Below are positions 24,535 through 52,230 of a DNA stretch of 53,512 bases, piece by piece (position 1 is the first letter of the stretch; each line of letters begins with the position of its first letter). The position numbers were made by a program, and so were the translations under genes. The notes below the pieces were generated by a model. It was given only the letters and a program-made list of their open reading frames with translations, was not told the origin of the DNA and made no database searches. This stretch comes from Pseudomonadota bacterium. Lineage in GTDB: Bacteria > Desulfobacterota > Desulfuromonadia > Geobacterales > Pseudopelobacteraceae. The stretch is taken from assembly GCA_019352135.1 (NCBI GenBank), contig JABBNX010000007.1, forward strand, positions 1 through 53,512, written 5' to 3'.

Positions 24535-25608
24535 TTACACCTTTCCCTTTAATTTATAGACATACGCCAGTACCTCTGCAACAGCTGCATAGAGCGCTTC
24601 CGGAATCGGTTCGTTCTCTTTGACCTGGTCATACAGTTCGCGGGCCAGGAAACGGTTTTCCACCAGGGTAATACTGTGCTCTCGGGCGATCTTCTTGATC
24701 GCCTCGGCCATGATATCCATCCCTTTGGCGAGGACAACCGGCGCAGCCATCTTCTGCCGGTCATATTTGAGTGCAACGGCAAAGTGGGTCGGGTTGGTGA
24801 TGATGACATCAGCCAGCGGGATGATTTTGGTCATCCGGCGGCGGGCCATCTGAAATTGCATCTTCTTTATCTTTGCCTTTGTCTCAGGGTTACCTTCGGA
24901 CTCCTTATGCTCGTCCTTAACCTCCTGTTTGGTCATTTTGAGATTTTCCACATGGCGCCACTTGACATAGAGCATGTCGAGCAGGCCGAGAACGATCATA
25001 ATGCCGCAGGTATGGGTGACAATCTTGAATGCAACATGACCCACGAAATCAAATATTGTCTGAATATCGGCTTCTGCCAGAAACGTGATATTCTGCATTT
25101 CGTCCCGCAGCACCCCATAGGCGATCCAGCCAACAACCGACAGCTTGAGCAGCGATTTCAGCATCTCAACGAGAGCGTCTTTGTTAAACAGCCGTTTGAA
25201 GCCATTCAGGGGATTGAGCTTGTCGAAATTTACTTTCAGACGTGACGTTCGAAACTCGAATCTGCCGTTGTCCTGAACCAGGCTTGAGAGTACAGCAGTG
25301 GCTACAATTGTTACGACAAGTGGCGCCAACAGCAGCACAACGGTGCCAAACAGCTTGAGCACCAGAACGTAGAGGTTTGCTTCGGTTAGCTGGAAGCTGC
25401 CCATCGTTGACAATATTTTGACCGTACTCTGCTTAATGCCGTCCATCATAAAGCTGCCGAAGATATAGAGGCTGACGATACCCGTGAGCAGGGTAAGCGA
25501 CGACGTCAGCATCTGGCTCATCGGCGGCGGACTATCTTCGCGCGATTTTTCTAGTCTTTTGCCGGTCGGTTGTTCAGTCTTTGAGTGTTTATCTGAATCT
25601 TCAGCCGT
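24535..25608 (-). CDS. flhB: Flagellar export gate protein FlhB with apparent ACG start
   Basis: FlhB is the flagellar type III export switch protein in the inner membrane. It has four membrane helices and a cytoplasmic domain with the self-cleavage motif NPTH (in IITNPTHFAVAL). The first in-frame ATG (25521) would remove the conserved N-terminal tail. Reading upstream to the fliR stop gives AEDSDKHSKTEQPTGKRLEK, the classic FlhB start, but no ATG, GTG or TTG. The only fitting codon is ACG at 25608-25606, seven bases after a GGGGGGA ribosome site, giving 357 residues, the normal length. Either ACG initiates, or an ATG was mutated or misread, or one base is extra near 25602-25614 and the ATG overlapping the fliR stop is the true start. 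Confidence 0.9.
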   Translation of the reverse strand, partial: TAEDSDKHSKTEQPTGKRLEKSREDSPPPMSQMLTSSLTLLTGIVSLYIFGSFMMDGIKQSTVKILSTMGSFQLTEANLYVLVLKLFGTVVLLLAPLVVTIVATAVLSSLVQDNGRFEFRTSRLKVNFDKLNPLNGFKRLFNKDALVEMLKSLLKLSVVGWIAYGVLRDEMQNITFLAEADIQTIFDFVGHVAFKIVTHTCGIMIVLGLLDMLYVKWRHVENLKMTKQEVKDEHKESEGNPETKAKIKKMQFQMARRRMTKIIPLADVIITNPTHFAVALKYDRQKMAAPVVLAKGMDIMAEAIKKIAREHSITLVENRFLARELYDQVKENEPIPEALYAAVAEVLAYVYKLKGKV

Positions 25609-32379: not shown

Positions 32380-34113
32380 TCAGTAATGTATGTCAAGCAT
32401 CGTCTGCCCTTGCTGCCTCTGATGTACCGCCTGACCGGAAGAGAGATCAGCCTGTGCAATGTGATAGCCAGGTGATGTCCAGGACTGATACTGTTGTTGC
32501 TGTTTAGCCAGTTCACGCCAGGCACTCTGGTTCTGTCCGTTATTTCCTGAACCTTTTCCGCCGGTGGTTACATCAAAGGATTCCATCGTGATGTTTTGGC
32601 GTGCCAGAGATTCTTTGAGGGCATCGGTATGCTGAGCAATAGCATTCCGTACGGTCTCGTTTTGGGTTGAAATTGTAACCGAAAGTTTTTGTCCCTGGAG
32701 ACTCAGGTTCACTTTAATTTCACCGAGACTGTCGGGTGAAAGCGTCAATGTAATCTGATGATTCCCCGGCTTTACCACGTGCTGTGTCAAGTTCTCTTTT
32801 AGCTGCTGCACAACCTGTCCCGAAATGTCCTGGGGGGTAGTTCCGACCGAATCGGTTTTTACAGAAAGTGGGGCTACTTTCTGATTTTCCATACTTACTT
32901 GTCCACGCATCTGCTGCTCAAGCATCTTACTGTCGGCGCCACCATCGGATTGTTCCTGATTGTTGTCGTTGGTGTGCGAAGTATCGGAACTCAACGCTGA
33001 TCCGCGGGAAGATACGGCAGATTGCACTGATGAAGCCATTTCTTTGACCTCATTTTGCTCATTGCCAGTCCGGCTGTTTTTATTCTGTAGTTCGGGAGCC
33101 GAATGAGCCGCCGATACTCCAGATTGAAGAATGCTGGATGCAACTCCCGTTTTTCCAGCTGGTGACACGGTCACGACACCATCTTTTGCCGCTTGTGATG
33201 CAGCAAGCTTGTCTGCCGTTGGGACACTGACAGCTTCTGCTGAAAGCGTTACCGGCGTTTGAGCCTGTAATGTTGATTGTACTGGTTCGGCGGTCTTTTG
33301 CTCCACCTGAATTTTTTCCGGCGAGGTTGAAACGAGAGCCGATTGAGCTGTTGTGTTCCGTACCCCATCAACAGGAAGTGCCATCATCTTGCTGATATCT
33401 GACATTCTGTCAGATTGTGCCGGTTGCGGTGTGGTTGCTGAAACCGTCACCACAGCAGCAGATTGCAGAAGAGGTTGTGCATGCTCATCTGCGTGTTGTG
33501 TTACAGGGAGTAGTGCAATTTTTTCAGCTGACTGCCCGGATGTTGTTTGCTGCGGTGCAGCCACACGCTCTGTCTGCTTGCCAACCTGATGAGCAGACAT
33601 GACGTCAGTGGAACCTGGTACTGTTGCTGCATTCTGCAGCATGCTACTGTTAATCGGTGCAGGAATGGTCACGTTCAATATTTTGCCGGATTGCGAATAC
33701 GCTGCCATAATCATCTGAGAGGCAACACCTGATGATTCGCCCTGCTTTGGTATACTATCAGCACTCGTATCCGTTTTTTTCGTATCCTTTGCTGGTGGGG
33801 AAGCAGGCATCACTGCTGCGGCAACCTGCGGTGATCCATTAAGCAGTGCCAGCAGATCATCACCTGAGTCCACTGTACCGGCATCAGAAGGATGCTGATC
33901 CTTGCCAATTTTGTGCTTATGTTGCCCCATCTGCTCGGAATGGGATGAAACCCCATCTTTTGCCGAAAGATGAACCCCACTCAATATCCCTGCAAACTTA
34001 CCGCCATTTTGTTGGTCACCATCCGTTACCACGGCTGCGGCTGTGGATGTCTCCGGTGTGGCTGACGGTGCCGCATTACAAATTGAAGCACTATTCAATT
34101 GTCCACTAGTCAT
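32380..34113 (-). CDS. fliK: Flagellar hook-length control protein FliK
   Basis: This secreted molecular ruler ends hook growth and triggers the FlhB switch. The ATG at 34113 with AGGAGGTG seven bases upstream is preferred over a start at 34158, giving 577 residues. The long N-terminal part is Ser/Thr/Gln/Ala-rich and disordered. The C-terminal Flg_hook domain (about residues 440-520) shows ITLTLSPDSLGEIKVNLSL and IAQHTDALKESLARQNI. This is the canonical FliK; a second, larger FliK-like gene lies at 47433-49664. Confidence 0.92.
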   Translation of the reverse strand: MTSGQLNSASICNAAPSATPETSTAAAVVTDGDQQNGGKFAGILSGVHLSAKDGVSSHSEQMGQHKHKIGKDQHPSDAGTVDSGDDLLALLNGSPQVAAAVMPASPPAKDTKKTDTSADSIPKQGESSGVASQMIMAAYSQSGKILNVTIPAPINSSMLQNAATVPGSTDVMSAHQVGKQTERVAAPQQTTSGQSAEKIALLPVTQHADEHAQPLLQSAAVVTVSATTPQPAQSDRMSDISKMMALPVDGVRNTTAQSALVSTSPEKIQVEQKTAEPVQSTLQAQTPVTLSAEAVSVPTADKLAASQAAKDGVVTVSPAGKTGVASSILQSGVSAAHSAPELQNKNSRTGNEQNEVKEMASSVQSAVSSRGSALSSDTSHTNDNNQEQSDGGADSKMLEQQMRGQVSMENQKVAPLSVKTDSVGTTPQDISGQVVQQLKENLTQHVVKPGNHQITLTLSPDSLGEIKVNLSLQGQKLSVTISTQNETVRNAIAQHTDALKESLARQNITMESFDVTTGGKGSGNNGQNQSAWRELAKQQQQYQSWTSPGYHIAQADLSSGQAVHQRQQGQTMLDIHY

Positions 34114-34176
34114 TTTTTTCACCTCCTTTCTGTTTGGATTTTTTATGAGCTTGGACATAATCTACCCATAAAATTA

Positions 34177-45744: not shown

Positions 45745-47157
45745 TTAACATCCAGCAATCATCGCCGCCTGCCGCAGGAAGCGCTCGACTTGATCCAACG
45801 TTCCCGCTTCGCTGTACAGGCGCAAAACCGGCTCAGTTCCGGAAGGACGGATCAGCAACCAGTCTCCGTTTTCAAAAATAAATTTGAAACCATCACTGAA
45901 ATTGGTGGCCACAACCTGCTGGCCATCAATCGCTGTCGGGGGGTGCACGCGCAGTTTTGCAATCAACTGGTCTTTGGCATCATCCTCGATACGGCGATCA
46001 ATCCGACGATAATAGAAATGTCCGATGTCGTCCATCGTCTCATCAAGTAACTGCCGCAGCCCCTTGCCATTAACCGCAACAGCCTCCAGCAGCAGCAATC
46101 CAAGCAGGATCCCGTCGCGTTCCGGGATATGGCCTTTCACTCCAAGCCCTCCAGACTCTTCTCCCCCCATGAGTATATCCCGCTCCAGCATCAGCTCACA
46201 GATATGCTTGAACCCGATCGGCGTTTCAAAGAGCTCCAACCCGAATTTTTCAGCCAGCAGATCCACCATGCGTGTTGTCGAAACCGTCTTGACCACCGCT
46301 CCGGTCAATTTCTTATATTCGATCAGATGCCGCAGGATTACGGTAAAGATACAGTGGGAGGAGAAGAAGTCGCCATTTTCATCAACGGCGCCAATCCGGT
46401 CGGCATCACCGTCAAGTGCAAGGCCAACCAGATAGTTTCCGGTTTTGATCAGTGCTGACAATTCCTCCAGATGCTGGCCGATCGGTTCGGGCGGCTGTCC
46501 GCCGAACGAGGGGTTTTCACTGTTATGGATTTCATCAACCCCGGGGAGAAGGCGTGGTATAAAACCGCTACCGGCACCGAACATCGGGTCTACGACCGCT
46601 CTAATCCCGGCCTTCGCGATCAGATCAAGGTCGACGTAGCGGCTGATCTGATGAAAATATCCTTCACAAGGGTCAAAAAGTTCGATAGTTCCCTTTTTCA
46701 GTGCCTCGTCATACGGGACAGCTATGACACGACGCTCGTTCTCCTGATTATACGCAACGATTTCTTCAAGAATTCTGGTTGTGGCAGGGAGGGCGGAACC
46801 ACCAAAAGCTTCTTTCACTTTAAAACCGTTATATTCAGGAGGATTATGGCTTGCCGTAATCATCACACCAGCTCCGGCGCCGCTCTCGCGTACAGCCCAG
46901 GAAACTGCCGGTGTCGGGGCATAATCCTCCGTCAAACGGACGTGAATACCATTTCCTGCCGCAATTTCTGCCACCCGCCGGGCAAAATCACGCGACAGAA
47001 AGCGGCGGTCATAGCCGATCACCACCCCTTTATTTCCCAAACCCTCACGATTCAGATAATCCATGGTAGCCTGGGCCACCAGTGAAAGGTTCTCAAAGGT
47101 AAAGTCCCGGGCGATAATACCCCGCCAGCCATCGGTGCCAAACTTGATACGCATCAT
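45745..47157 (-). CDS. Phosphoglucomutase/phosphomannomutase-family phosphohexomutase
   Basis: This 470-residue alpha-D-phosphohexomutase interconverts hexose 1- and 6-phosphates. All four family loops are present: the active serine in TASHNPP near residue 105, the metal loop DGDADRIG near 250, the sugar loop GGEESGG near 340 and the phosphate loop RPSGTEP near 438. The FGTDGWRG start is typical of bacterial PGM/PMM. It supplies glucose 6-phosphate or mannose 1-phosphate for glycogen or cell-surface sugars, which fits the alpha-glucan phosphorylase four genes upstream. The sugar preference is not decidable here. Confidence 0.93.
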   Translation of the reverse strand: MMRIKFGTDGWRGIIARDFTFENLSLVAQATMDYLNREGLGNKGVVIGYDRRFLSRDFARRVAEIAAGNGIHVRLTEDYAPTPAVSWAVRESGAGAGVMITASHNPPEYNGFKVKEAFGGSALPATTRILEEIVAYNQENERRVIAVPYDEALKKGTIELFDPCEGYFHQISRYVDLDLIAKAGIRAVVDPMFGAGSGFIPRLLPGVDEIHNSENPSFGGQPPEPIGQHLEELSALIKTGNYLVGLALDGDADRIGAVDENGDFFSSHCIFTVILRHLIEYKKLTGAVVKTVSTTRMVDLLAEKFGLELFETPIGFKHICELMLERDILMGGEESGGLGVKGHIPERDGILLGLLLLEAVAVNGKGLRQLLDETMDDIGHFYYRRIDRRIEDDAKDQLIAKLRVHPPTAIDGQQVVATNFSDGFKFIFENGDWLLIRPSGTEPVLRLYSEAGTLDQVERFLRQAAMIAGC

Positions 47158-47176: not shown

Positions 47177-47449
47177 TTACTTCTGCCGGTCATCCATCCA
47201 CTGAAGCCACACCAGTACTTCCGCTACCGCCCGATAAAGCTCGGGAGGGATAAACTGATCAATGTCAACCTGCAGCAGCAGTCTGACCAGTTCCGGTGAC
47301 TCATGGACATATACGCCCGCCTCATGGGCACAGGCGATAATCGCCTCAGCGGCAACGCCCTTACCACGGGCGATTACAACCGGGGCATAGTACCCCTGTT
47401 TATAGGAGAGCGCCGCCGCACGGCGCTCTCCATCATCTCGCTGCGGCAT
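47177..47449 (-). CDS. Free-standing FlhB C-terminal domain protein (FlhX/FhlB-like)
   Basis: This 90-residue protein matches only the post-cleavage cytoplasmic part of FlhB (AALSYKQGYYAPVVIARGKG, LLLQVDIDQFIPPELYRAVA). There is no membrane region and no NPTH cleavage site; the chain begins at about the point where cleaved FlhB-CC would. Such FlhX proteins can partly replace FlhB-CC in other bacteria. It overlaps the FliK-like gene by 17 bases, so the two are coupled. The full flhB gene is at 24535-25608. Confidence 0.9.
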   Translation of the reverse strand: MPQRDDGERRAAALSYKQGYYAPVVIARGKGVAAEAIIACAHEAGVYVHESPELVRLLLQVDIDQFIPPELYRAVAEVLVWLQWMDDRQK

Positions 47450-49664
47450 GACAGATGTTCAACTCTGCCGGTGTAAGCCCGGCACCCTCCAATTGTCCAA
47501 TCAAACGTGCCCTGCCCTCTTCCAAAACCGGCACATTCGCACCGTCTTCAACATTCACTTTAATAGCCACACTCGTCCCATCGAGCGTAAGCTGCGCTGT
47601 AACCGGACCCAGGTGGGGCAGAGTAATGGTTATACTGGTTTCCCAGCTCCGCTCGCGCCCGCCGGACCGGTCACGCCCCGCCTCCCGCTCGGCAACGGTC
47701 CACTCCATGCGGCGGCCGGGAAACAAGTCGCCTTGAAACACCAACTGGCCGTTCTGCAGTGAAGACAGCTGCTCGGTGACTATCGGCAGAGTGCGCTGAT
47801 CAGCAATCCCTTCATGTGCCATACCGCTGCCGGCCTTTTTAAAGAGCGCCTCCATTATTTCAGGTGAACCGGTCCGGATGCCGGCCCGTACAAGTTCATC
47901 AGCCAGCACACCGGGCTGTTCCACGGCCTGTGCCAGACGAGGAGACAAACGTCCCTGTGGCTCCCTGAGGATCTCTTCCATCTGATAATCGCCGCCAAAC
48001 CAGCGGGCCAAATGAGACTCGTAAAACAGCCCGCTTTCACGTAGACCCTGCTGGAGCATCCTGCCAAGCAATGTTGCATCGGTGGTCGGCCCGGCCAACA
48101 GTGTGCGCAGAATACCGAGCGTGGCTTGGGCCGGCACCGAGCCGGATGCTTCACCCAGAAAACTGCTCAACCAGCGACCGGTGTCGCTGATCCGGGAATC
48201 TCCCGGCCGCCCGAAACGGACCATCAGGAACGTCTCGCGCGGCTCCTCAGTTATGAAAAACAGGGTAATCAGATCGCCACGGGCAAGCCCCTTCGGCAGC
48301 ATGAATTCCAGGCTCCGGCCTGCAACCTGGACCATGAAACGTCCACCACCCAGCGCGGCGAGCACTTCGCCTTTTAACTGTTGCCCCGGCGCAAATCCGG
48401 CCGGCATGGCCTGCTGATTAAGGGCTTCAAGCAACGCCAGGCGATTCCCTTTGATTACGGCCTGAAGAAGCCTGGCCATGTCGTCGCTCAATACGATTCC
48501 ATTCCCTGATGCAGAAGGAGTCTGCTGCGCGGAAAGCAGCGATGCCTGCAATGCGGCAGACTGCTCTGAAGAAGTCTGTCCTCGCATGACCGTCTGGTAG
48601 GTAATCGCCTCATCCAGAATAGCGGTGAAAGCCGGCGAATCGGGGGGAAGACTCTTAAGTACCGTATTCAGACGATCAAGCACGTACATCTGCTGACTCG
48701 ACACCCCTCCCTCGCTATGTTCCAGCACGCTCAGCCAGCGGCCTGCTTCGCTTAAAACACCTGACGTGCTGTCAGGCAGCAGACGCGAAATCGCAAAAGT
48801 CACTTTCGGCTGGGACGATATATAGGTCAGACGAAGAATGTCACCACTCTGTACCGTTCTTGGAAGAGTCAATTCCATCTCTGCCCCTGCCACCTGAACA
48901 AACACCTTGCCGCCAGGCAGTGTACCGATCACAGAAGCTTCAATCTCTTCTCCGGGAAGGAACGGCAGCGGCGTCACCGGCTGATTGGCAGCTTCAACCA
49001 GAATAACGCGGGAGTTTTGTGCAATCATGCGCAGGATCTGGGCGGCACTGGTTTCAAAAGCCGTCAGTCGCAGCTGTTCCGGAGTAAACCGTGAGGTTCC
49101 TTGCTGGGGCAGATCTCCCTGCTGATTCCCCGGTCCGCGCAGGGGAGCGCCGCCGGACTGAGGAAGCGTCTTTGCTCCCTCCCGCACATCCCCATAGGTC
49201 AACGCTTCGTCCATCAGATGTGCCAATACACCTGCATCGCCCGAAGAACGACGCAGCATATCGCCAATAGTCTGGAGAGACGCACGGAATGAGGAATCAA
49301 CACCCTGTTCGTTTGAAACGAGAAGACTCAATAAGCGCGAAGCATCGGAAAGGCTGACGGGTGGGGCCGCCCCCGCCTGGCGAGCGATGGCAAATGTTGA
49401 ACGGGGATCAGCGGCAACAAACGTCATCTCCAGCATCTGCCCGGAGCGAACCGGCATCGGCAGATCAAGATTGAATTTCTCGGTGCCGACCTGAACCTGA
49501 GCCCGGTTATTGGGCAGCGTCGACAGAACCTCCGCGCTGACCCGTTGACCGGGAACCAGCATACTAACACTGCCGGAATCCTGGTCTGCGGTAACAAAAG
49601 AGATAGTGGATGCGTGCGAAAGTAGGTCGTAAACCTGTTGCTGAATGTCCACTGCTAGAACCAT
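47433..49664 (-). CDS. Large FliK-like protein with three internal repeat modules
   Basis: This 743-residue protein ends in a FliK/Flg_hook-like domain (TLPHLGPVTAQLTLDGTSVA, about residues 660-740). Before this come three copies of a compound module. Each has a beta part of about 60 residues (starting LVPGQRVSAEVL at 36, FLPGEEIEASVI at 236, FAPGQQLKGEVL at 426) and a helical part of about 55 residues (SDASRLLSLL, SEAGRWLSVL, SDTGRWLSSF). GGGGA lies five bases before the ATG. It begins one base after the glgP stop and overlaps flhX. Its role is unknown; a hook-length or export-switch role is inferred from the C-terminal domain and neighbour. Confidence 0.8.
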   Translation of the reverse strand: MVLAVDIQQQVYDLLSHASTISFVTADQDSGSVSMLVPGQRVSAEVLSTLPNNRAQVQVGTEKFNLDLPMPVRSGQMLEMTFVAADPRSTFAIARQAGAAPPVSLSDASRLLSLLVSNEQGVDSSFRASLQTIGDMLRRSSGDAGVLAHLMDEALTYGDVREGAKTLPQSGGAPLRGPGNQQGDLPQQGTSRFTPEQLRLTAFETSAAQILRMIAQNSRVILVEAANQPVTPLPFLPGEEIEASVIGTLPGGKVFVQVAGAEMELTLPRTVQSGDILRLTYISSQPKVTFAISRLLPDSTSGVLSEAGRWLSVLEHSEGGVSSQQMYVLDRLNTVLKSLPPDSPAFTAILDEAITYQTVMRGQTSSEQSAALQASLLSAQQTPSASGNGIVLSDDMARLLQAVIKGNRLALLEALNQQAMPAGFAPGQQLKGEVLAALGGGRFMVQVAGRSLEFMLPKGLARGDLITLFFITEEPRETFLMVRFGRPGDSRISDTGRWLSSFLGEASGSVPAQATLGILRTLLAGPTTDATLLGRMLQQGLRESGLFYESHLARWFGGDYQMEEILREPQGRLSPRLAQAVEQPGVLADELVRAGIRTGSPEIMEALFKKAGSGMAHEGIADQRTLPIVTEQLSSLQNGQLVFQGDLFPGRRMEWTVAEREAGRDRSGGRERSWETSITITLPHLGPVTAQLTLDGTSVAIKVNVEDGANVPVLEEGRARLIGQLEGAGLTPAELNICHAAAR

Positions 49665-49665
49665 A

Positions 49666-52230
49666 CTATCCCCAGATCAAATAACCGGGTTCATACATAG
49701 TACCGAGAACCGCATGGTGCGGAATTATCCGCACCATAAAGCCGTGCCGTCCACAGAAACGACACTCAAAGGATCCGCTAAAACTATAGACACCCCCCCC
49801 GAGATCTTTCTCCATCACGAGTTTTACGGTTTCTCCACCCTGAATATTACCCGTCGAATCCAACACCCCGAAATATCCCTCAACAGACACGTCCTCAACA
49901 GGGATATCGCCCAGCGTTATCCGGGCGGCAACAGGGACCTGGCTCCCGACAGCGACTGCATCTGTAGCCTGAGCTTCAGCCTGTTCAATACGGATTTGCG
50001 GCCAGGCTTTGAAAATTCTCTCTTTCCAGCGGGCAAGATCAAGCGCCAGCGCAAAATCGTTGTCAACCAGTCGCTGCCACTGCGTATAGGATGGTAGGTA
50101 CGAGTGACTGGTGTATTCCTGCACCATGCGGTCGGTTGAAAAAACCGGGCAGAGACTCTGCATGGAGGCTTTCATCGTGGCAATCCATGCGCGCGGAACA
50201 CCATCGCTCCCCTGTTCGTAAAATTGCGGTATAACCTCCTTTTCAAGCAGATCATACAGGGCACGTCCTTCAACCTGATTCTGGTATTCAATATCGACGT
50301 AGACTTCCCCTTTGCCAATCGCCCACCCATTGTTCCCCTGATAACCTTCGCACCACCAGCCGTCCAAGATGCTCAAATTGAGACCGCCGTTAAAGGCAAC
50401 CTTCATACCGCTTGTCCCGCTCGCCTCCATCGGCCGGAGCGGAGTATTGAGCCAGACATCGGTGCCCTGCACCATATGACGGGCAACCTCCATGTCATAA
50501 TCCTCTATGAAAACTATCCGGTGACGGAAGCGCTCCTGATGTGACGCCTGCACAATCTGGCGAATTAGTTCTTTTCCTTCCTGGTCCTGGGGGTGAGCCT
50601 TGCCGGCAAAGATGAACTGTACCGGCATCTCCGGGTTATTAAGGATGTGGGCCAGGCGGTCCAGATCACGCAACAGCAGTGTCCCCCGTTTATATGTTGC
50701 AAACCGCCGTGCAAAGCCGATCGTCAATACCTCGGGATCAAGGACCTCCTCGGCAGTTGTAATTTCCTTGGTTGTGGCGCCATCCTTTATGAGCTGTTCC
50801 TTAAGCCGCTTACGAGCAAAATCAACCAGTTTCTCGCGACTGCTCAGACGCGCTCGCCACAGCTCGGCATCCGGTATCCGGGATATCCGGCGCCAGACAT
50901 TATGGTCAGTCGGGTCCTCCAACCAGCGGGTGCCCAGATAACGGATCAACAGACTGGCCATATGGTTCGACATCCAGGTGCGGGTGTGGACACCATTGGT
51001 GACCGATGTCAGCGGACGTTGTTCCTCCGGAAGCTCGGGCCAGAGAGCCTTCCACATGCTGCGCGAGACCTCGCCATGCAGCTGGCTGACTCCATTTGCA
51101 TGCCCGGCAAGTTTGAGTGCCAGCACTGCCATACAGAAAGATTCCTGCTGATTTTTCGGATTCTGACGTCCCAAACCGATAAAGTCATCATGCGTGATCC
51201 CAAGCGGCTTGAAATAGTCGAGGAAAAATTTGTCCAGCAGCTCCGGCGCAAAATGGTCGATACCTGCTTCCACCGGAGTATGGGTCGTAAATATGGTGCC
51301 GGCATTGACAATTTCGCGGGCTTCGCTGAAGCGGATATCATGTTTTTCCATCAGCAGGCGGATGCGTTCCAATGCCAGGAAAGCAGCATGCCCCTCGTTC
51401 ATGTGGCATACATTGGGAATAATCCCCATGGCGCGCAGAGCCCGAATACCACCGACGCCAAGCAGAATTTCCTGGATCATGCGCATCTCTTTGTCACCAA
51501 AATAGAGTTGCGCCGTGATCAGGCGATCTTCAGGCCGGTTCTCCTCCAGATTGGTATCCAGCAGGTAAAGCGGCACACGGCCAACCTGCACCCGCCAGAT
51601 GTGAACCTTGAATTTGCGGGGGCCAAACTCCAGCTCGATAGTCCTCGGCACGCCATTTTTGTCACGTTCGAGGGTTAACGGCAGATTATAGAAGTCATTC
51701 TCGGGATAATACTCCTGCTGCCACCCCTCGTTATTAAGGTACTGGCGAAAATATCCCTGCCGGTACATCAGACCGACACCGACCAGCGGCAATCCCAGAT
51801 CGGAAGCTGATTTGAGATGGTCACCAGCTAAAATGCCGAGGCCGCCGGAATAAATCGGCAGTGACTCATGGAGGCCGAATTCCATCGAGAAATAGGCCAC
51901 TTTCATCTTAGAAGCGCCGTTGCACGTCTTCTGAAACCAGGTTTTTGCCCGGAGATAATCGTTCAGCTTTTCGTCTACCAGCGCCAGATGCGCCATGAAT
52001 CCTTCGTCATTTTTGAGCGTCTCCAGCGTCGTCTGCTGGAGGATTCCAAGCATTTCTACCGGATTATGACGGGTAGACTTCCAGAGATCCGGATCAATCC
52101 GGCGAAAAAGGCTGGTTGCATCGGGTTCCCAGCACCACCACAGATTATATGCCACCCGCTGCAGCGCAACCAATTCACCAGTCAGGGAGGGAACAACCGT
52201 GAATTTGTGCAATAATCGTGTAAAGTCCAT
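49666..52230 (-). CDS. glgP: Alpha-glucan (glycogen/maltodextrin) phosphorylase
   Basis: This 854-residue GT35-family enzyme of the TIGR02094 type has an N-terminal DUF3417 region (RVAYNLWWCWEPDA). It releases glucose 1-phosphate from glycogen. Visible motifs include SMEFGLHESLPIYSGGLGILAGDHLK (substrate region, about residues 116-140) and the pyridoxal-phosphate lysine in the segment MEASGTSGMKVAFNGGLNLS near residue 605. The ribosome site AGGAGGG is strong. It lies ten bases after gspF and one base before the FliK-like gene, so it is carried in the motility transcript. Confidence 0.96.
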   Translation of the reverse strand: MDFTRLLHKFTVVPSLTGELVALQRVAYNLWWCWEPDATSLFRRIDPDLWKSTRHNPVEMLGILQQTTLETLKNDEGFMAHLALVDEKLNDYLRAKTWFQKTCNGASKMKVAYFSMEFGLHESLPIYSGGLGILAGDHLKSASDLGLPLVGVGLMYRQGYFRQYLNNEGWQQEYYPENDFYNLPLTLERDKNGVPRTIELEFGPRKFKVHIWRVQVGRVPLYLLDTNLEENRPEDRLITAQLYFGDKEMRMIQEILLGVGGIRALRAMGIIPNVCHMNEGHAAFLALERIRLLMEKHDIRFSEAREIVNAGTIFTTHTPVEAGIDHFAPELLDKFFLDYFKPLGITHDDFIGLGRQNPKNQQESFCMAVLALKLAGHANGVSQLHGEVSRSMWKALWPELPEEQRPLTSVTNGVHTRTWMSNHMASLLIRYLGTRWLEDPTDHNVWRRISRIPDAELWRARLSSREKLVDFARKRLKEQLIKDGATTKEITTAEEVLDPEVLTIGFARRFATYKRGTLLLRDLDRLAHILNNPEMPVQFIFAGKAHPQDQEGKELIRQIVQASHQERFRHRIVFIEDYDMEVARHMVQGTDVWLNTPLRPMEASGTSGMKVAFNGGLNLSILDGWWCEGYQGNNGWAIGKGEVYVDIEYQNQVEGRALYDLLEKEVIPQFYEQGSDGVPRAWIATMKASMQSLCPVFSTDRMVQEYTSHSYLPSYTQWQRLVDNDFALALDLARWKERIFKAWPQIRIEQAEAQATDAVAVGSQVPVAARITLGDIPVEDVSVEGYFGVLDSTGNIQGGETVKLVMEKDLGGGVYSFSGSFECRFCGRHGFMVRIIPHHAVLGTMYEPGYLIWG

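Follow-up and report, generated by a model that had tools for sequence, protein, structure and literature searches.

The window, by which we mean the whole 53,512-nucleotide stretch of DNA analyzed here, carries on one strand two overlapping genes, named here fliK2 and flhX, together with the canonical fliK and flhB. The features referred to below are as follows:

47433..49664 (-), fliK2, FliK-like protein of 743 aa that lacks the C-terminal tail of FliK (open reading frame and PF02120)
49224..49610 (-), FliK2 module 1, residues 19 to 147, predicted barrel plus helices (module HMM E 3e-47; AlphaFold2 block pLDDT about 75 to 93)
48627..49013 (-), FliK2 module 2, residues 218 to 346 (module HMM E 1e-48; barrel pLDDT about 83 to 88, helices 32 to 59)
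48069..48446 (-), FliK2 module 3, residues 407 to 532 (module HMM E 1e-45; barrel pLDDT about 69 to 84, helices 34 to 55)
47943..48035 (-), family signature SGxFYESHxAxW..G...EPQGxLS, residues 544 to 574, between the modules and the switch core (pattern)
47454..47657 (-), Flg_hook / T3S4 switch core, FliK2 residues 670 to 737 (PF02120)
47433..47449 (-), 17-base overlap of the fliK2 end and the flhX start (sequence)
47177..47449 (-), flhX, 90-aa free FlhB C-domain without NPTH (PF01312 positions 262 to 334; pocket residues kept)
32380..34158 (-), canonical fliK, 592 aa, low-complexity N-terminal part, tail ending in MLDIHY (PF02120, 70.9 bits)
about 24535..25608 (-), open frame of canonical flhB with NPTH (PF01312, 394 bits; start codon not settled)

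Coordinates and Pfam matches agree with the sequence-only reading of this DNA, which had described a 743-residue FliK-like gene overlapping by 17 bases a gene for the FlhB C-domain only. FliK2 matches the Flg_hook family PF02120 at 44.9 bits (Pfam cut-off, 29.8) and stops 6 residues past the match, and FlhX matches the FlhB family PF01312 at 63.8 bits (cut-off, 24.4), covering only positions 262 to 334 of 335. That reading had also placed the usual fliK and flhB elsewhere in the same block; at E ≤ 0.001 the host genome holds two PF02120 and two PF01312 places, that is, one further place for each family, all on the same contig as the pair. The canonical fliK lies about 13 kb and the canonical flhB about 22 kb from the pair.

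The fliK2-flhX pair is widespread

Of the 58 genomes from the order, the host's own included, 41 carry a free FlhX, and in 40 of these it is preceded by a same-strand Flg_hook match, with 7 to 28 bases separating the two matches; in the 41st, the pair is divided by contig ends. A further Flg_hook gene is present in 39 of the 41. The two genes are still joined in three genomes (G046, G055, and G057) in which they lie 1.7 to 3.1 Mb from flhB. Five relatives have FlhB and only one Flg_hook but lack FlhX, so a flagellum does not need the pair.

We also relied on a genome scan, from which 80 of 387 confirmed loci were kept as named loci (Geobacterales, Rhodocyclales, and others). A gene with a FliK-type C-domain is directly upstream of FlhX in 78 of the 80. 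Taking the FlhX ATG closest to where the match begins, flhX starts ahead of the FliK2 stop codon in 72 of these 78, so that the genes overlap. Eighteen of the genomes behind these loci were searched, and 17 have at least two Flg_hook genes. The sequence-only reading had held that it would fall if the genes did not co-occur in other genomes; the coupling is real and wide, and that objection fails. Both exceptions among the named loci are from Accumulibacter (L086:6001-6261 and L089:6001-6273), where no FliK2 lies upstream and a YcgR/PilZ-like gene, named by eye, lies downstream; two Flg_hook genes were found in the genome of the first and one in that of the second.

We also drew 130 genomes evenly from the Pseudomonadota, the phylum of Rhodocyclus. 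At least two FlhB C-domain matches were found in 79, although the additional match may represent another full FlhB, and 62 of the 79 have at least two Flg_hook genes. Conversely, all 62 genomes with at least two Flg_hook genes have at least two FlhB C-domains, and none of the 33 genomes with a single FlhB C-domain has a second Flg_hook (Fisher p 4e-16, kinship ignored). The remaining 17 of the 79 have fewer than two Flg_hook genes; FlhX can therefore occur alone. Among the matches listed (77 genomes), at least 38 of 83 free FlhX have a Flg_hook within 400 bases, and of the best 30 Pseudomonadota FlhX loci, 17 were paired on reading and 13 had no clear FliK2 within 1.5 kb, which indicates that some FlhX stand apart. 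Searches for FliK2 beside unpaired FlhX at seven loci gave a weakly similar short open reading frame at two (L169 and L172) and nothing at the other five. In three genomes with unpaired FlhX (G120, G132, and G148), a Flg_hook lies 4 to 8 kb upstream on the same strand. At L149, L152, L154, L158, and L167, the free FlhX follows a gene for a membrane protein that by eye resembles CorA/ZntB-type metal transporters. Six genomes (G096, G104, G115, G135, G151, and G191) have two listed free FlhX each.

FliK2 has a switch core, no tail, and folded N-terminal modules

By its PF02120 match, with structural matches in support, FliK2 is classed as a bearer of the Flg_hook / T3S4 core domain, as is canonical FliK (Salmonella; window 32380-34158). 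The AlphaFold2 model of full-length FliK2 is weak overall (pLDDT 65, pTM 0.39); that of a minimal member from Sulfuricella is better (pLDDT 75, pTM 0.58, switch domain mostly 84 to 96). The switch domain of this minimal member aligned with 5cuk (PscP) by Foldseek (prob 1.00, E 0.022, rmsd 1.6) and by VIA (Z 7.1, rmsd 3.0, 74 aligned), and with 2rrl (the FliK C-domain) by Foldseek (prob 0.99, E 0.2); Foldseek returned no match at E ≤ 0.001, and 5cuk and 2rrl were among the best.

What follows the core differs between the two kinds of protein. We collected 128 FliK2-type proteins, leaving out L007 (cut by a contig end) and the two Accumulibacter loci (no FliK2). In the 125 of these that have a measurable core, the residues beyond it number from -2 to 26, with a median of 1; 17 proteins from loci L150 to L178 have 21 to 26, and the other 108 have a median of 0. 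Twenty canonical FliK from relatives and from betaproteobacterial genomes have 40 to 58. The canonical proteins close with an LLDxx-type end peptide, a pattern written after inspection of their tails: it occurs in 20 of 21 canonical FliK, the 21st having a single mismatch, and none of the 128 FliK2 has it. In Salmonella FliK, the tail is described as residues 353 to 405, 53 residues in all (PMC6972891), and the core is reported to bind FlhBC, the final five residues being described as important to the switch (PMC10965912). FliK2, ending at the core and without the end peptide, thus appears to have kept the binding part and dropped the firing part. Canonical FliK proteins across lineages (window 32380-34158 and L179 to L198) share one kind of end peptide (LLDVRF, MLDIHY, LVDLFA, etc.), which is a candidate for the switch trigger.

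The N-terminal parts differ as well. Canonical FliK has a flexible, low-complexity ruler at this end and a disordered tail with its end peptide at the other; FliK2 has neither, and carries instead modules that are predicted to be folded and that were detected in 124 of the 128. Three copies of a beta-plus-helix module had been noted in the window's protein, and every pair of copies is significant by BLASTP (E 5e-24, 2e-13, and 8e-26) and by Smith-Waterman alignment (z 32, 19, and 35; 500 shuffles each). Structure prediction had been proposed as a check, and for all three AlphaFold2 predicts one helix followed by six strands and further helices. Against solved structures (Foldseek and VIA-align), the barrel matched OB-like barrels, those of 26S ATPase subunits and IF1-type factors, with Z 6 to 7; since the top matches were all tied and Z was under 8, we rejected a specific fold name and claim only a loose OB-like arrangement. 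Pfam matches to MSSS, SH3_Myosin, and eIF-1a on the modules were all under the cut-off and were likewise set aside. The module profile found no copy in the window's canonical FliK.

Between the modules and the core lies the FYESH-EPQ signature, which occurs in FliK2 of Geobacterales and of betaproteobacterial members and not in the window's canonical FliK. Among 107 FliK2 from the genus and the named loci, 91 have the strict form and 104 a looser pattern; the looser pattern was found in 0 of 19 proteins of the Pseudomonadota-sample loci L150 to L178, which we take to be mostly Gammaproteobacteria. The FliK2-type protein of the clostridium Acetoanaerobium (L146:3452-5995) carries DUF6240 (PF19753, unknown function), and this family may be the N-terminal part of clostridial FliK2.

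FlhX is a free FlhB C-domain that lacks the cleavage site

Full FlhB consists of a membrane part and a cytoplasmic domain. FlhX does not have this architecture; it is a stand-alone C-domain with the substrate pocket, in a genome that also has a full FlhB. It starts just past the place of NPTH, and the N-P of this cleavage site is kept in 0 of 81 FlhX (the 80 named loci plus the window). Four positions of Salmonella FlhB, A286, P287, A341, and L344, have been described as forming a pocket (PMC9307174), to which early subunits bind (PMC9307174, PMC8983047). We placed these positions on FlhX by residue count, starting at the cleavage Asn of the window's FlhB, and the corresponding residues are kept in 81, 81, 78, and 80 of the 81 FlhX, respectively. 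These positions lie outside the stretches EAII..A.E and GVYVH.S.., which we excluded as evidence because the genome scan had selected for them. The best NCBIfam match of FlhX is TIGR00789 (flhB_rel) at 80.1 bits, below its cut-off of 117.35; no match over the cut-off was found in the 58 genomes of the order or in the 130 Pseudomonadota.

Gene neighborhoods of the pair, and a distribution tied to the flagellum

By title, 36 of the 80 named loci belong to Geobacterales or Deltaproteobacteria; the other 44 are mostly from Betaproteobacteria. In the majority of betaproteobacterial loci the pair forms part of a late flagellar string, fliD-fliS-fliK2-flhX-ycgR: among the 44, FliD or FliS is upstream in 34 of the 40 whose sequence extends far enough, and 33 of 42 have a YcgR-like PilZ gene downstream. 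The neighbor families were confirmed for Rhodocyclus and Dechloromonas and, for FliS only, in Sulfuricella. In model systems, FliD, FliS, and YcgR-like genes are late, filament-stage or motor-brake genes. The same queries found no FliD, FliS, flagellin, FliF, or YcgR in the flanks of the 36 Geobacterales-type loci. In Acetoanaerobium (L146), the single clostridial case, an 848-aa protein with a Flg_hook score of 28.6 bits (cut-off, 29.8) precedes FlhX, and an open reading frame that is flagellin-like by eye follows it. The pair's distribution ties it to the flagellum: of the 58 genomes of the order, 13 have no FlhB, and FlhX is absent from 12 of these, the one case of FlhX without FlhB being a fragmented assembly of 800 contigs (G023).

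Known counterparts of the pair

A free FlhB C-domain is already in print. Helicobacter pylori FlhX (HP1575) also stands beside a full FlhB and, by the title of Wand 2006, acts as a "spare part" that permits export when FlhBCC is deleted; that title names no FliK-like partner. An "flhX-fliK" locus is named for Nitratiruptor (PMC9321776), where both kinds of gene form one locus outside the main cluster; where the locus is named, gene order, modules, and the tail are not discussed. Cut C-domains are known too: Yersinia YscUCC is described as dissociating and being secreted (PMC3504009), and both it and Salmonella FlhBCCD (PMC13344023) resemble FlhX as C-domain pieces that, as described, leave the gate at the specificity switch, but they come from a full protein, whereas FlhX is a separate gene product made without cleavage. 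In the open-licence literature, we found no description of a tail-less, module-bearing FliK partner, nor of the cross-lineage pairing, the barrel module, or the FYESH-EPQ signature. The description of the module as undescribed therefore has to be given up for the free C-domain and for the locus, and holds, within that literature, for the tail-less partner.

A proposed second control on the export switch

The way in which FliK prompts FlhB to change substrate has long been in question. In Salmonella, a 2026 paper proposes that secreted FliK ejects the cut FlhBCCD, and in its model the gate becomes locked in late mode once the FlhB C-domain and Fluke are lost (PMC13344023). On balance, we lean toward the view, drawn from comparison of sequences, that the two proteins FliK2 and FlhX make up a dedicated module that acts on the flagellar export switch; the conserved set of FlhX and tail-less FliK is probably a second control on the hook-to-filament transition. 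FlhX would be a pre-cut copy of FlhBCC, the piece of FlhB that keeps the export gate in early (rod/hook) mode, itself uncuttable and retaining the pocket for early subunits. FliK2 would be a FliK switch core that binds an FlhX-type piece, with no firing tail and with folded barrels in place of the ruler; it may bind FlhX in the cytoplasm and then hold or deliver it. FlhX could then take up its place on FlhB, or capture early subunits, without setting off ejection, and hook measurement would stay with the canonical FliK/FlhB pair. The late string of the betaproteobacterial loci would fit an action after the switch. The observations behind this proposal are the coupling and co-occurrence, the lost cleavage site and tail, the kept pocket, the switch-domain family, and the late betaproteobacterial context; from these we infer binding between FliK2 and FlhX, the site of action, and the direction of effect. 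The overlap of fliK2 and flhX may reflect co-translation only.

If the proposal is right, nature provides a pair that separates binding from firing, and with it a direct test of the ejection model (PMC13344023) outside Salmonella. It could also assign a function to proteins with a Flg_hook match alone, which databases presumably name "flagellar hook-length control protein FliK."

FlhX might instead be a free docking buffer whose pocket collects early rod and hook subunits, with FliK2 as the carrier, so that the gate is fed or starved and FlhBCC is not replaced. The four pocket residues kept in 78 to 81 of 81 FlhX, and the reported binding of early subunits by the Salmonella pocket, speak for this; those residues may be kept for the sake of the fold as well, however, so their conservation is not specific, and the betaproteobacterial context is late, not early. 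We regard this reading as rather doubtful. We think it unlikely, too, that the pair resets or refills the gate, with FliK2 delivering uncuttable FlhX to the FlhB vacated after canonical FliK has ejected FlhBCC, and thereby either putting the gate back into early mode, to allow repair or another hook, or capping it in a stable post-switch state. Were it true, the switch would not be irreversible in bacteria with the pair.

The Helicobacter title could be taken to mean that FlhX is merely a redundant spare part, and the loss of the FliK2 tail could be decay, with FliK2 a passive, deteriorating copy of FliK. Both genes, however, show purifying selection: in the comparison with G020, a close relative, dN/dS is 0.15 for fliK2 and 0.16 for flhX, and a second comparison gave 0.12 for fliK2. 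The FliK2 signature is near-invariant, and the pairing extends across distant lineages. The window's FlhX, moreover, is 60 to 64% identical to FlhX of Geotalea and of three betaproteobacteria and 46% identical to the CC domain of its own FlhB; being closer to distant FlhX than to the local protein, it is no recent copy, and we ruled out a recent duplicate of the local flhB. We therefore consider simple redundancy distinctly unlikely.

The three repeats had also been suggested to act as a ruler, which would make FliK2 a second ruler whose modules set hook length while its C-domain flips FlhB. The Flg_hook domain is genuine, and the three modules do extend the protein to 743 aa. Counted with our own profile built from the window's repeats, however, the 128 FliK2-type proteins (some genomes enter twice) have three modules in 46 cases, one in 78, two in none, and no detected module in 4, of which one is truncated at a contig end. 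Most proteins of this set thus have a single module. The number, 1 or 3, varies between families within the same order, and triplication looks like a feature of the lineage. With the switch tail missing, the N-terminal part predicted as folded barrels rather than low-complexity sequence, and a further Flg_hook gene in 39 of 41 FlhX genomes, the ruler interpretation does not hold up well, and we judge it quite improbable.

A nonflagellar purpose is scarcely credible: the window's pair lies between glgP and a phosphoglucomutase gene, sits megabases from flhB in three genomes, and has no betaproteobacterial-type flagellar neighbors at the 36 Geobacterales-type loci, but FlhX is absent from 12 of the 13 FlhB-less genomes of the 58 (the 13th being the fragmented assembly) and most betaproteobacterial loci lie inside a flagellar string.

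Glycogen genes flank the pair

On one side of the pair in the window is glgP, identified by eye from the sequence; the ATG of fliK2 lies one base past the glgP stop codon (window 49662-49668); on the other, the phosphoglucomutase gene (window 45745-47157) comes after flhX. Given this arrangement, one transcript may cover both glycogen and flagellar genes. Among 29 loci of the genus, 28 have the phosphoglucomutase gene in their 1.5-kb flanks and 14 have glgP there.
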